Assembly: GCF_030549525.1 (NCBI RefSeq)
Contig: NZ_CP130831.1
Span: 4,630,001 to 4,686,432 of the forward strand
Reading direction: 5' to 3'
DNA length: 56,432 nucleotides
Source: Stenotrophomonas sp. 704A1
GTDB lineage: Bacteria; Pseudomonadota; Gammaproteobacteria; Xanthomonadales; Xanthomonadaceae
Positions 49,643 to 55,538 of the stretch are shown here, piece after piece. A program made the position numbers and the translations under genes. The notes below the pieces were generated by a model. That model was not told the origin of the DNA, made no database searches, and was given only the letters and a program-made list of their open reading frames with translations. Position 1 is the stretch's first letter. Each line of letters begins with the position of its first letter.

Positions 49643-49675
49643 CAGGGCCGGGCACATGCTCGGCGATGCCCCTAC
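49643..49675 (-). repeat. Degenerate SMAG element overlapping the mnmE stop
   Basis: On the minus strand a GTAG (49672-49675) includes the TAG stop of mnmE and is followed by GGGCATCGCCGAGCATGTG and CCCGGC, an imperfect hairpin. Similarity to intact copies is partial. Confidence 0.45.
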
Positions 49676-51021
49676 TTGCCGATGCAGAAACTGGAAAAGA
49701 TCCGGCCCAGCAGGTCATCGGCACTCATCTGCCCGGTGATCTCACCCAGCGCGTCGTGCGCCAGCCGCAGCTCCTCGGCGGCCAGTTCCAGGTGTTCGTG
49801 CGCCAGCTCGGCATCGGCGCGCTGCGCATGTTGCTGCGCGCGTTCGATGGCATCCACATGGCGGGTACGCGCGGAGAATTCGCCCTCCACCTGCTCGCCT
49901 GCCCCGGCCGACGCGATCGAGCGCAGGCGCGCATGCAGGTCCTCCAGACCGGCGCCGGTGGCGGCCGAGACCAGCACCCGATCCGGATCGTCCAGCGCCG
50001 GCGCGGTCACCAGCAGGTCCGACTTGTTGTGGATGTAGACCTTGTGCGGCACCGCCGCCACCGCCTCGCCCAGCGCGGCTTCGCCGGCGGCGGGGTCACG
50101 CGCATCCAGCACGATCAACGCCAGGTCGGTGCGCTCGATCTCCACATGGGCGCGGCGCATGCCTTCGCGTTCGATCACATCCCCGCCCTCACGCAGGCCG
50201 GCGGTATCGACCAGGGTCAGCTCCAGCCCATCCAGGCGGATGGTCTCGCGCAGGGTGTCACGGGTGGTACCGGCAATGTCGGTGACGATGGCGCGTTCGC
50301 TGCCGGCCAGCGCATTGAGCAATGAACTCTTGCCGGCGTTGGGCGGGCCGACCAGCACGGCATGCAGGCCATCGCGCAGACGGCGCCCGCGTTCGGCATC
50401 ACGGCGCAGCAGCGCCAGGTCACCACGCGCCTGTTCCAGGCCGCGCCGCACCTGTGCACCACCGAGCGTATCCAGCGGTTCGTCGGCGAAGTCGATGGCG
50501 GCTTCCACGTGGATGCGCAGCAGCACCAGCTGCTCGACCACGACGTCGATGCGGCGCGAGAACACGCCGTCCAGCGAACGGCGCGCGGCGCGGGCAGCGC
50601 GGCTGTCACCCGCGGCGATCAGGTCGGCAATGGCCTCGGCCTGGGCCAGATCGAGCTTGCCGTTGAGGAAGGCACGTTCACTGAACTCCCCCGGCCGCGC
50701 CTGGCGGGCGCCCAGCGCGATGCAGCGCGCGACCAGCTGCTGCAGCAGTACCGGGCTGCCATGGCCCTGCAGCTCCACCACCTCTTCACCGGTGAAGCTG
50801 TTCGGTGCCGGGAACCACAGCACGATACCGTCGTCGATCACCTCGCCCTCGGCATCGCGCAGGCGCGCGTAGTGCGCGTGGCGCGGGCGCAGCGTGGGCG
50901 CGCCCAGCGCCATGGCGATGGCCGCGGCGCGCGGGCCGGACAGTCGCAGCAGGCCGACACCGCCGGCGCCGGGGGCGCTGGCGATGGCCACGATGGTGTC
51001 GGTACGGGTCGCGTCATTCAT
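49672..51021 (-). CDS. mnmE: tRNA modification GTPase MnmE (TrmE)
   Basis: 449 residues. The N-terminal THF-binding domain has [22 protein letters not shown]; the G domain has [22 protein letters not shown] and NKSDL; the C-terminus ends in the catalytic CIGK. With MnmG it makes the cmnm5 modification at U34 of certain tRNAs. It begins three bases after the stop of the deacetylase-caspase gene, so it is translated from the same transcript. Confidence 0.96.
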
Positions 51022-51024
51022 GGC

Positions 51025-53694
51025 TCAGAGTTTCTCCAGCTGCGCGCGCGCCTGGGCAGCACCGCTGCCCTGCGGCTGCAGGGCCAGGTAGGTGGTATAG
51101 GCCTGCCTGGCCCTGGCCCTGTCGCCGGCGTGGAAGTACGCATCGCCCAGATTGAGGTGGGCCACCGCACGCGAGGGATCGATCTTCAGGGTGTTTTCCA
51201 GCCAGCGCGCGGCTTCGGCATAGCGCTGCTGGCGGTAGTAGACGAAGCCGAGGTTGTTGGCCGCCTGGGCGAAGTCCGGGCGCAGTTTCAGTGCTTCGGC
51301 GAACTGCGCGGCGGCGGCCTCGTACTGCTTCTCGCGGTACAGCTGCAGGCCACGGTCGTTGGCCTGCTGCGCGCGCTGGCGGTCCGAGGCCGGGCCGGCA
51401 CTGGGCACCACCAGCGTCGCCCTGCCCCCCTGCAGGTCGGCCACGGTGACCGGTGCTTCGCTGGGCTTCGCGTCCTGCGCGGCATCGACCTTGTTGTTGA
51501 GGGCAATCGCATCGGGGGTCAGCTGGCGGGTGTCGGCGTTGAGGTATTCCTGGCTGTCCGGCAGCTGGAACACGAACTCGCCGCCCTGCGAACCGGGCAG
51601 GCTGCCGAAGGCCGGGGTCTGCTGCGAGACCGCCGATACCGCCGGCGCCACGTAGGCCGCCAGCTCGGTGCCGGTGATCAGGCCATCACCGTTGAGGTCG
51701 CCCTTGCCGGCCAATGCCTGCAGCAGCACCCAGGTGAACACCGAATGGCCATTCGGGCCGGCATCGGCCACCTGCTGGTCGGCGCCGCCGGCGGTGAGCA
51801 TCTGACGCGCGCTGCGCCGGGCGTTCTCGCGCAGGAATGCGGACGACGAGGGACCGCCGCGGGTCAGGCCGAGGCCGCTGTAGCAGGCGTCCATCACGAA
51901 CATCACGTGCTTGGCCTGCAGGCTTTCGGCGATGTTCTGGATGTCGGTCATCGCGATCGCGTCGGTGGCGAACTCCTTCGGGTCCGAATCAACCGGGATG
52001 ATGTAGCCGAGGTCGCGCCCGGAGGCGAGCTGGCGGGTAGCACCGTGGCCGGCGAAGAACACGAACACGCGGTCGTTGCGGCCGGTGCGGTCATCGGCCA
52101 GCCGGTCGTGGAAGGCGGCGAGGATGTTGTTGCGGGTGGCCTGCTCGTTCTTCAGCACGATCACCTGCGAAGCCGGAAAACCGAACTGCCCGGTCAGCGT
52201 GTCGGCCACCGCCTGTGCATCGTGGCTGGCGTACTCAAGCTTCGGCCACTTGGCGTAGTTGTCGATGCCGACCACGATCGCCCACGATTTCTCGTACCCG
52301 GTGGTGACCGTGGCGTCGCGGTCACTGCCCTTGCGGGGGCGGGCGACGCTGAAGTCGCGGCCGTTCCAGCCGGCGAACTGGTAGCCGTCGGCGATCAGGC
52401 GATCGAGGATCTGCGGCAGCGCCTTCACCGCGCGGTCGTGGATGTCGTGGAACAGGATGATGCCGCGCTGTTCCTTGCTGACCTGGTCGAGCACCCGCTG
52501 CACGATCGATTCCGGCACCGGGTCGGCCCAGTCCATTGAATCGATGTTCCACATGATCGACTTCAGGCCGGCCTCGTTGAGCAGCTGCAGGCCTTCGGCA
52601 TTGCGCGCGCCGTAGGGGAAGCGGAACAGCGGCGCACGTTTGCCGTCGACATCCTTCAGCAGCGCATCGGTGTCCAGCACCTGCTGGCGCAGCGCGTCGC
52701 CGGAGGTGCGCGACAACTGCGCGTGGGTCAGGCTGTGGTTGCCGACCGCATAGCCTTCTTCCATCAGGCTGCGGCTGATCTTCGCCATCGGCCCGAGGCT
52801 GACCGTGCCATCGGCGTCGACCTTGCCAAGATTGCGGCCGACCTCGAAGAACACGCCGGGCACGTCATAGCGCTTGAGGATGGCCACCACTTCATCGGTA
52901 TAGGCCTTGTGCGGGCCATCGTCGAAGGTCAGCACCACGGTCTTGGCCGGCAGGTCGCGGCCGAAGATCTCGCGGTCGTTGTCCTTCATCGACATCGGGT
53001 AGGGCTCGATCACGCCGTAATCGCGCAGGATCGCCTCGCGGCTGTAGTCCTTGTGCAGGTGGGCGATGTAGTCGTCCCACTTCTCCCGCTTCAGCTCGAT
53101 GGCGCGGGTGCGCTCGAAGCGGCTGAAGATGCGGGTCAGTTCCTGGTTGTAGTTTCGCTCGATCTCGTCGAGCGCCTCCAGGTCCTCGCCGATGCGCTGA
53201 TGCAGTTTCACCGCCGGCAGCGAGGAATCGGCACCGACCCGCTCGTGCAGGTCGCGCAGCACTTCGCGGAAGGCGAGGCGATCGGCATCGAACAGCTCCG
53301 GTGCCGATTCGATGTAGTCCAGCACGCTGCCAAGGGTGGCGAAGCGCCGCGGGCTGCCACCGCGCAGCAGGCTGTCGAACTGCGCGGCGATGGCCGTGCG
53401 CTGTTCCAGCCCGTCGTGGAACAGCTGCTGGCCGATGCGGGTGGAGGTGCCACGGTCGGTGGGCGACTGCGCGTGTTCGTCGGCCAGCAGCACGATGATG
53501 CGGCGGTAGCCGTCCAGCTGCTTCTGCAAAGCATCCAGCAGCGGCGCGGCGGCGGGGTCGGCAGCGGCCGCGGCCCGCGCGCTCGCCTGGGTCGGGGTGG
53601 CCGGCGCCTGCGTGTCGTTGTTGGTACACCCGGCGACGAGCAGGGTCAGCAGCAGCGAGGCCAGCAACAGGTGGAACGACGGCACACGCGGCAT
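51025..53694 (-). CDS. Lipoprotein with polysaccharide deacetylase, caspase-like, EF-hand and TPR parts
   Basis: 889 residues. The lipobox LVAGC places Cys23 as the lipid anchor. Residues 45-245 are helical with no family recognised. The NodB deacetylase (250-450) has TFDDGP (256-261), metal His320 and His324 in HSLTHAQLS, FRFPYG (357-362) and LFHDIHD (414-420), so it looks active. A caspase/C14 domain (468-660) has the dyad His550 (AGHG) and Cys604 (DACYSG). DLNGDGLITGTE (666-677) is a canonical 12-residue EF-hand loop. Three TPR-like repeats fill 774-873. It should sit in the cell envelope and act on glycan and protein. Substrates are unknown. The gene lies between yidC and mnmE, three bases before mnmE. 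The ATG at 53694 is fixed by the lipoprotein signal. Confidence 0.9.
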   Translation of the reverse strand: MPRVPSFHLLLASLLLTLLVAGCTNNDTQAPATPTQASARAAAAADPAAAPLLDALQKQLDGYRRIIVLLADEHAQSPTDRGTSTRIGQQLFHDGLEQRTAIAAQFDSLLRGGSPRRFATLGSVLDYIESAPELFDADRLAFREVLRDLHERVGADSSLPAVKLHQRIGEDLEALDEIERNYNQELTRIFSRFERTRAIELKREKWDDYIAHLHKDYSREAILRDYGVIEPYPMSMKDNDREIFGRDLPAKTVVLTFDDGPHKAYTDEVVAILKRYDVPGVFFEVGRNLGKVDADGTVSLGPMAKISRSLMEEGYAVGNHSLTHAQLSRTSGDALRQQVLDTDALLKDVDGKRAPLFRFPYGARNAEGLQLLNEAGLKSIMWNIDSMDWADPVPESIVQRVLDQVSKEQRGIILFHDIHDRAVKALPQILDRLIADGYQFAGWNGRDFSVARPRKGSDRDATVTTGYEKSWAIVVGIDNYAKWPKLEYASHDAQAVADTLTGQFGFPASQVIVLKNEQATRNNILAAFHDRLADDRTGRNDRVFVFFAGHGATRQLASGRDLGYIIPVDSDPKEFATDAIAMTDIQNIAESLQAKHVMFVMDACYSGLGLTRGGPSSSAFLRENARRSARQMLTAGGADQQVADAGPNGHSVFTWVLLQALAGKGDLNGDGLITGTELAAYVAPAVSAVSQQTPAFGSLPGSQGGEFVFQLPDSQEYLNADTRQLTPDAIALNNKVDAAQDAKPSEAPVTVADLQGGRATLVVPSAGPASDRQRAQQANDRGLQLYREKQYEAAAAQFAEALKLRPDFAQAANNLGFVYYRQQRYAEAARWLENTLKIDPSRAVAHLNLGDAYFHAGDRARARQAYTTYLALQPQGSGAAQARAQLEKL

Positions 53695-53746
53695 GGCGGA
53701 CTCAGGCTGGGGGGAACAGTGTGCGGGCGATTCTAACGCCACATGC

Positions 53747-53774
53747 GCAAAGCCCGCCTTGCGGCGGGCTTTGC
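53747..53774 (-). terminator. Hairpin after yidC, possible terminator
   Basis: A perfect 12-bp stem, GCAAAGCCCGCC / GGCGGGCTTTGC, with a four-base loop between yidC and the deacetylase-caspase gene. There is only a TTT in the stem and no T run after it, so it may attenuate rather than stop the operon. Confidence 0.5.
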
Positions 53775-53822: not shown

Positions 53823-55538
53823 TTACTTTTTCTTGGCCGGTGCGGTGGTGGCGGTGGCCGGAACCGGGTCGCTGCCGTGGCGCTTGGTCATCCACCACTG
53901 CTGCAGCAGGCCCAGGCCGCCGTTGACCACCCAGTACAGCACCAGACCGGACGGCATGAAGGCCATCATGACGCCGAACACCAGCGGCATGAACTGCATC
54001 ATCTTCTGCTGCATCGGGTCCATGCCCGGTGCCGGGGTCAGCTTCTGGGTGAACCACATCACCGCCACGTTGATCACCGGCAGGATGAAGTACGGGTCAC
54101 GCGCGGTCAGGTCCTGGATCCAGCCGAACCAGGGCGCCTGGCGCAGTTCAACCGATTCCACCAGCACCCAGTACAGCGCGAAGAAGATCGGCATCTGGAT
54201 GAGGATCGGCAGACAGCCGCCCATCGGATTGATCTTCTCCTTCTTGTACAGCTCCATCATCGCGGTCTGGAACTTCTGGCGGTCGTCGCCGTAGCGTTCC
54301 TTCAGCTGCGCGATGCGCGGCTGGAACCGGCGCATCTTGGCGCCGCTCTTGTACTGGGTCGCCGACAGCGGGTACAGCACGATCTTCAGCAGCACCACCA
54401 GGCCGACAATGGCCCAGCCCCAGTTGCCCACCAGCTTGTGCACCTGGTTGAGCACCCAGAACAGGCCCTGGCCGATCACCGCCATCATCGAGAAGCGGCT
54501 GTAGTCGACCACGCGGTCCAGGCCCGGCACGTCTTCCTTGGCGATCAGGTTGACCAGCTTCGGGCCGACCCACAGGCGGGCCTCGGTGCTGGTCGACTGG
54601 CCCGGGGCCACGGTGAAGGCCGGGCCACGCGCCTCGATCAGGTCACGGCCGGCGACCTGCGACAGCACGTAGTGCGCGGTCTGGTCCTTTTGCGGGATCC
54701 AGGCGGTGAAGAAGTGGTGCTGCAGCATCGCCAGCCAGCCGCCGGTGATGTTCTGGTTCAGCGCGCCATCGTCCAGGTAATCCTTGAACGCACGACGCTG
54801 GTACTTCTTGTCGTTGTCGTACCAGGTGGCACCGTTGAAGCTGAACGAATCCGGATTGGTCATGCTCCGCGACAGGATCGTCGGGGTGCGGTCCAGGGTG
54901 CGGTACACGTAGCCGTTCCACGGCGCGGCACCGGCATTGCTGACTTCGTCCTTGAAGCGGATCGCATACTCGTTGCGGCCCACGGTCAGGGTGCGCTTGA
55001 TGGTCACACCGTTGTCGCCGGTCCACACGAAGGGGATCTGCAGTTCGTTCTGGCCCTTGGCCAGCACGAAGTCGCGGGTATCACCGACCAGCTTGAAACC
55101 GTCGGCACCCGGCACCGGGGTGTTCTTGTCTTCGCTGGCCCAACCGCTGATCGCGCTGTAGGGATGCGCGGGGTCTTCGGTCAGCAGGCGCACCGGCGGA
55201 CTGCCCTCGTCCTTGCTCTGCGGGAACTGCAGCAGCTCGGCATCCAGCACACGGCCGCCATCGAGCTGCAGGCGCAGCACGTCGGTGGTCACGGTCACGC
55301 GCTGTGCGGACGGCGTGGCGGCGGCCTGGGCCTGTGCCGCCGGCTGGCCCGGGGCACCGGGAACCGTTGCGCTGGGGATGCTGCCCGGGGTCGCGCCCGG
55401 AACGCTCTGTGCGGCGGCCGGTGCCGAGCTGGTGGTCGGTGCCGGGGCCGGAACGGCCTTTTCACGGCTCCACTCCATCCACAGCAGCACGGCCACCATC
55501 AGCCAGGCAAAGATCAGGAATACACGGGTCTGGTTCAT
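53823..55538 (-). CDS. yidC: Membrane protein insertase YidC
   Basis: 571 residues. The N-terminal helix (6-22), a large periplasmic domain (about 60-340) and the five-helix insertase core are present: [35 protein letters not shown] and a C-terminal [12 protein letters not shown] tail. It inserts and folds inner-membrane proteins with or without Sec. Start and the rnpA stop share one base (TGATG). Confidence 0.96.

Follow-up and report, generated by a model that had tools for sequence, protein, structure and literature searches.

Analysis of a 56,432-nucleotide stretch of Stenotrophomonas sp. 704A1 (contig NZ_CP130831.1, positions 4,630,001 to 4,686,432, hereafter the window) revealed at positions 51025..53694 of the minus strand a gene that encodes a predicted lipoprotein of 889 amino acids, in which a NodB-type (CE4) polysaccharide deacetylase domain, a caspase-like C14 peptidase domain and tetratricopeptide repeats (TPRs) are combined, and which stands between yidC and mnmE. 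The open reading frame extends from an ATG at 53694 to a TGA at 51027-51025 and contains no internal stop codons. An earlier reading of the DNA letters (the original prediction) had described this single frame without giving its strand, and had named as the alternative a frame error joining two genes; the frame is confirmed, and the frame error was ruled out because full-length homologs are common.

Regarding the domain layout, all parts of which lie on the minus strand, residues 1-23 (53626..53694) form a predicted signal peptide with the lipobox VAGC ending in Cys23, followed by an N-terminal domain (residues 39-240; 52975..53580), which is helical in the AlphaFold2 model and for which no Pfam match at E≤1 was found. 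The NodB/CE4 domain (residues 247-445; 52360..52956) carries D258, D259, H320, H324, R358, D388 and H416, the C14 domain (residues 467-711; 51562..52296) carries His550, Cys604 and an acidic pocket of Asp492 and Asp602, and the TPR array occupies residues 771-889 (51028..51384). An EF-hand loop, DLNGDGLITGTE (residues 666-677; 51664..51699), was placed by alignment and by the modeled helices between helices 652-664 and 675-689. The domain search suggested with the original prediction agrees with its assignments, as Polysacc_deac_1 (PF01522; residues 247-378, 93.6 bits against a cut-off of 23.1), Peptidase_C14 (PF00656; residues 470-666, 79.9 bits against 21.4) and TPR models (residues ~780 to 886, previously given as 774-873) were all detected above cut-off. 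In the sequence, His320, His324, His550, Cys604 and the EF-hand loop also stand at the residue numbers given there. The predicted structure, also suggested there, has a caspase fold in the C14 domain; a first AlphaFold2 model, built from six close sequences, had a predicted local distance difference test (pLDDT) score of 51 and was discarded in favor of a later one. This was the only C14 protein found in the genome of the window, which has five NodB proteins including this one.

The architecture, the catalytic dyad and the operon with trmE (mnmE) have been known since 2012, and the novelty that the original prediction saw in the combination and its locus does not hold. According to the available excerpts of that work (Asplund-Samuelsson et al., 2012; PMC3501461), a polysaccharide deacetylase, a C14 domain and TPRs in one protein define the 'Xanthomonas-type metacaspase', which has conserved Cys-His dyads in all 17 cases, was described from the genera Xanthomonas, Xylella and Stenotrophomonas as well as from two Acidobacteria, and forms a conserved two-gene operon with trmE in Xanthomonas and Stenotrophomonas; functional work was called for. 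The window protein has PF01522, PF00656 and TPRs in that order in one chain, the dyad as His550 and Cys604, and trmE/mnmE as the next gene. New here are the reach of the family into Betaproteobacteria, the invariance of key residues in 90 representatives, the EF-hand loop within the caspase fold, the lone cysteine, the accessory status of the gene and a hairpin between yidC and the gene.

Active-site conservation was assessed in a 90-row alignment of representatives with less than 88% mutual identity, at least 820 amino acids long and 56-88% identical to the window protein. They were drawn from 240 proteins listed by two protein searches and from 118 loci, of which 117 (99 distinct) had a single frame with both NodB and C14 motifs. 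The NodB residues D258, D259, H320, H324, R358, D388, W389 and H416 and the C14 residues D492, H550, D602 and C604 are invariant in 90/90 rows, 28 of which had been picked through their NodB and C14 motifs, so that the fair sample for catalytic residues is the other 62. The catalytic and metal-binding residues of the five customary CE4/NodB motifs are thus all present, and Asp492 and Asp602, which align with aspartates of Yca1, form the predicted acidic pocket for Arg or Lys at substrate position P1. Column entropy was lowest in the C14 domain (0.59 bits) and rose through the TPRs (0.81) and NodB (0.87) to 1.31 in the N-terminal domain. The median ratio of nonsynonymous to synonymous substitution rates (dN/dS; 78 pairs from 13 Stenotrophomonas-type coding sequences) was lowest in the TPRs (0.066) and C14 (0.083) and higher in NodB (0.136), the N-terminal domain (0.185) and linkers (0.279). 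These values indicate intact catalytic residues under strong constraint in predicted caspase and CE4 folds, with selection on the protease at least as strong as that on the deacetylase. The low TPR value could be taken to mean that the protein is mainly a structural TPR lipoprotein scaffold with vestigial enzymatic domains, but the invariance of every catalytic residue and the C14 dN/dS make this very improbable.

With regard to export, the lipobox and envelope location given in the original prediction agree with the sequence, and a lipobox-type cysteine was found in nearly all Xanthomonad-type copies as well as in four copies from metagenome-assembled genomes (MAGs) at 78-84% identity. The 17 Betaproteobacterial copies at 58-64% identity have an N-terminal hydrophobic stretch and in no case a lipobox. 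In 85/90 representatives no cysteine other than the catalytic one occurs past residue 31, as expected for a free thiol in an oxidizing compartment, which indicates the periplasmic side. The lipobox or hydrophobic N-terminus and the cysteine pattern together point to that side of the membrane. Lipoproteins with a residue other than Asp at position +2 are sorted to the outer membrane, and as residue +2 is Thr, the protein would be expected there. Confidence is fair that the protein is exported and that both of its enzymes are active.

The EF-hand loop at residues 666-677 is canonical, as originally described, with 12 residues, acidic or polar ligands at positions 1, 3, 5, 9 and 12, and a helix on either side. 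The corresponding pattern occurred 0.0025 times per protein in shuffled sequences (60 proteins, 20 shuffles each), and the ligand positions 666, 668, 670, 674 and 677 are invariant in 90/90 alignment rows, in the choice of which the loop played no part. It had been regarded as a separate module; in the AlphaFold2 model it connects two helices inside the caspase fold, and it recurs at the equivalent position in 99/120 relatives of a Deinococcus caspase among the matches listed (P0241-P0360), some of which are named Nostoc, Microcoleus, Leptolyngbya or Chloroflexi. Ten of 12 plasmid-borne C14 stretches fetched could be scored, and three of these, from Rhizobium, Deinococcus and Azospirillum, have the loop at the same place, while it is degenerate in one from Runella. 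The loop was not found at this position in 29/29 rows of C14 proteins, of the DACRxNP type or similar, from other classes of the phylum (28 of 30 loci from such genomes; two loci yielded no row) and in 16/16 of the nearest non-family rows (17 loci, 16 of which gave a row). The idea that the loop is unique to the NodB-C14-TPR family was thus overturned by the plasmid-borne caspases and the Deinococcus caspase relatives, and the loop is instead an internal element that recurs in some bacterial caspases and is fixed in the aligned members of this family. An EF-hand motif has been counted in seven archaeal orthocaspases (PMC6426788, in the part available). On a Deinococcus aetherius plasmid (L189/L199), the gene of the Deinococcus EF-loop caspase adjoins one annotated as an I42-family protease inhibitor.

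The loop is a predicted calcium-binding site, and its role may be regulatory or merely stabilizing. As calcium is not scarce in the periplasm, an exported loop may simply stay calcium-loaded; confidence in calcium control of the protease is low.

Regarding the locus, the flanking genes on the same strand were identified as yidC upstream (53823..55538; NCBIfam NF002352) and mnmE downstream (49672..51021; NCBIfam NF003661), in agreement with the original description of a gene inserted in a yidC-mnmE cluster; the stop codon is separated from the mnmE ATG (51021) by the three bases GCC, as described. The origin-proximal position assigned to the cluster fits with the window reaching the end of the 4,686,432-base contig. 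The order yidC, gene, mnmE was found in 55/59 Xanthomonad-type loci; in three others no yidC was found and the contig stops just before the gene, and Stenotrophomonas koreensis (L093) has the order yidC-mnmE-gene. In the flanks examined of 21 non-Xanthomonad-type loci, neither yidC nor mnmE was found, so that the proposed survey of neighborhoods supports the arrangement within the Xanthomonad type and in none of the others. All 11 same-genus genomes without the gene, three of which come from the family draw, have yidC adjoining mnmE. In one of them (G033, L180) a remnant encoding 76 lipoprotein-like residues lies between the two. Its 3' part aligns with the gene's end in nine relatives at scores of 68-95, where shuffled sequences reach at most 33-43, while the 5' part aligns weakly and does not consistently exceed shuffles; the remnant is a deletion scar, by which loss is shown for that case.

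The 98-nt intergenic stretch after yidC (fold z -5.3) contains a terminator-like hairpin (53747..53774, minus strand), which was recognized by eye at 9/9 empty sites read (of 11) and at most filled sites; it has no T-run, and a terminator scan of this strand did not flag it. A TAGAAT box resembling a -10 element (53730..53735, minus strand) was likewise assigned by eye ahead of the gene, with exact copies at 9/14 filled and 4/9 empty sites, while a promoter scan of the yidC-gene junction on this strand gave no site. Taken together, the gene is most likely transcribed in a unit of its own rather than with yidC.

The three-base gap to mnmE in the window, and the conserved two-gene operon reported for Xanthomonas and Stenotrophomonas (PMC3501461, available excerpts), would suit a protein that acts as a partner of MnmE or YidC. 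This is highly improbable given the 21 loci without yidC or mnmE nearby, the 11 genomes with yidC-mnmE but not the gene and a gene-mnmE gap that reaches roughly 290 bases in some Xanthomonas; moreover, MnmE is a cytoplasmic protein. A functional link to mnmE was dropped on the first two of these grounds, and the same counts speak against the expectation in the original prediction that loss of the gene would affect mnmE, although a mutation in this strain may still have a polar effect on mnmE. By these comparisons mnmE can do without the gene, and the link is local to Xanthomonad-type loci because the Betaproteobacterial copies stand away from mnmE.

Regarding distribution, 2,140/7,995 scored candidates of a protein search had E≤0.001, and the 120 matches listed are 857-893 amino acids long and 85-100% identical, with source names that are mostly Stenotrophomonas. 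A scan of one genome per species in 84,980 species confirmed 262 relatives; the figures on loci rest on the best 80 of these 262, 59 of which are Xanthomonad-type loci and 21 of which are in records labeled Betaproteobacteria or its genera. Seventeen of the 21 have 58-64% identity (Massilia, Janthinobacterium, Undibacterium, Polaromonas, Rhodoferax, Thiobacillus, Hydrogenophilales and others). At least 120 further proteins came from another protein search, which had an Undibacterium member as its query. The other four (L070, L073, L074, L076) are the lipobox copies in MAGs labeled Betaproteobacteria or Azonexus, which may reflect recent transfer or misbinning; neither yidC nor mnmE was found close by. 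One of the 59 Xanthomonad-type loci, a Stenotrophomonas-like yidC-gene-mnmE locus, is in a record labeled Bacillus subtilis (L086) and is presumably a contamination.

In an even family draw at E≤1e-60, matches were present in 44/297 genomes (four broken or partial) and 8/54 genera, and in a class draw of 369 genomes at E≤1e-35 the sole full-length matches came from the genome of the window and from two congeneric genomes, one further match being confined to C14; only part of the match-less genomes of these draws was listed. In four genomes of genus g37, which holds named Xanthomonas, the frames are interrupted or partial (L182-L185; judged by length, L118 and L182 are one contig); these are draft assemblies, so sequencing error is possible. 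The gene was present in 29/37 same-genus genomes (one copy cut by a contig end) and absent from 8/37. On a 92-row mnmE tree, absence requires at least six changes, at least five of them forced by well-supported branches; since mnmE sits next to the insertion, further changes could come from exchange of the region as a whole. Searches of 72,556 plasmids (E≤1e-30) and of 50,697 phage records (E≤1e-15) gave no match over 80% of the protein, and the idea of a mobile gene was dropped after these searches. Given its absences the gene is accessory, probably useful yet dispensable.

Such patchy presence, with the repeated changes on the mnmE tree, is what an accessory defense gene acting in abortive infection or against competitors would explain, and a PADLOC caspase model was matched. 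The match is limited to positions 2-130 of 453 and does not extend along the whole model, the chromosomal site is constant in 55/59 Xanthomonad-type loci, plasmid and phage records lack the protein at 80% coverage, no partner gene recurs and the protein is exported by sequence, all of which make a defense role improbable.

The reading that we prefer, with a probability of about one half, is that of a membrane-anchored two-enzyme protein on the periplasmic side, in which an envelope glycan deacetylase and an Arg/Lys-type protease would be combined with TPR docking, as suggested by the sequence and the models. After export, lipidation at Cys23 and sorting to the outer membrane, the NodB domain would deacetylate peptidoglycan or another envelope glycan, the caspase domain would cleave partner proteins after Arg or Lys, and the TPRs would dock these partners, as in the lipoprotein adaptors of envelope proteases. 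The EF-hand loop would bind calcium and order the end of the caspase fold; since calcium is scarce in the cytoplasm but not in the periplasm, the loop would most plausibly hold the protease inactive before export rather than sense a signal. Several observations weigh against this reading. The pTM (predicted template modeling score) of 0.46 makes the arrangement of the domains in the model unreliable; a CE4 fold is no proof of activity because the PDB includes CE4 pseudoenzymes such as 7bkf; the patchy presence shows that the function is not a core one of the cell wall; and no neighbor gene suggests a peptidoglycan role, with no neighbor family recurring in more than three of the 21 non-Xanthomonad-type loci. 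In addition, eukaryotic metacaspases are calcium-dependent whereas prokaryotic orthocaspases are described as calcium-independent, which is attributed to a missing p10 (PMC5756287, as excerpted) and also leaves unsupported the premise of the original prediction that C14 peptidases are often activated by calcium.

Confidence in a peptidoglycan role of the NodB domain is moderate. The top four Foldseek matches are peptidoglycan deacetylases, although the fold is common to other CE4 types. Of the deacetylase models in NCBIfam, PdaB, PgdA and NodB come nearest, every one below cut-off. As CE4 also includes chitin and poly-GlcNAc deacetylases (PMC5855634, in part), these sub-threshold matches would also suit a role in processing or modifying a polysaccharide destined for export, such as a capsule, the biofilm matrix or a chitin-like polymer, in which case the protease would trim the export apparatus. 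We regard this as rather unlikely, as no recurring neighbor, and hence no glycan operon, was found in the loci examined and the Foldseek matches lean toward peptidoglycan.

An executioner of cell death, in which a stress-activated caspase cuts envelope or imported targets and the cell lyses, is another candidate reading: caspase-3-like activity was described in dying Xanthomonas in casein-digest medium (PMC4006831, as excerpted), and PMC3501461 ties the X. campestris pv. glycines homolog to that work through antibody cross-reaction, in the excerpts available. The assays of that activity used DEVD substrates, which do not fit the acidic pocket of Asp492 and Asp602 (90/90), characterized non-caspase C14 enzymes cleave after Arg or Lys (PMC5756287, as excerpted), and the words metacaspase and deacetylase are absent from the main text of PMC4006831. 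As the protein also looks exported, and no functional test or knock-out of the gene was found in an open-access library, this explanation is considered unlikely. The stress or self-destruct switch raised in the original prediction is likewise not supported.

A more specific proposal within the two-enzyme reading is that the EF-hand acts as an export switch, the caspase being off in the cytoplasm and becoming an Arg/Lys envelope protease after translocation, which together with the deacetylase would jointly control cell-wall enzymes and their substrate; we consider this doubtful but conceivable. If true, the protein would be a prokaryotic caspase that works outside the cytoplasm, depends on calcium and serves a housekeeping function in the envelope. 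The role of bacterial caspase relatives has been argued mostly from cell-death analogies, and a family common in Stenotrophomonas and Xanthomonas and reaching Betaproteobacteria offers a target for caspase roles outside the bacterial cytoplasm. Environmental Betaproteobacteria (Massilia, Janthinobacterium, Undibacterium, Duganella) carry the gene at loci away from mnmE, in those examined, and the role is therefore testable there without mnmE polarity and outside pathogens.

Regarding known systems, PgdA (2c1g), Bd3279 (5jp6) and BC1960 (4l1g), which are CE4 peptidoglycan deacetylases, match residues 231-451 only, and we know of no caspase domain in them. The closest described relative of the whole protein is the Xanthomonas-type metacaspase, in the paper on which (PMC3501461) the term EF-hand is absent from the main text and, in the excerpts available, there is no mention of a lipobox or of Betaproteobacterial copies of the type. 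Bacterial orthocaspases such as MaOC1 share the C14 domain, the His-Cys dyad and the acidic specificity pocket (PMC5756287, as excerpted; see also PMC7935541), whereas the window protein is exported by sequence, fused to NodB and TPR domains and bears the EF-hand loop. An E. coli deacetylase has recently been linked to septal amidases (PMC12440217, in part). In the way it may work, the protein most closely resembles LbcA-CtpA and NlpI-Prc, likewise an outer-membrane lipoprotein with an envelope protease, and such lipoprotein-protease pairs degrade cell-wall endopeptidases (PMC12569750, as excerpted); these systems differ in consisting of two proteins with a protease of another family, and the likeness to NlpI is one of generic TPR similarity (32 bits against a model cut-off of 250).
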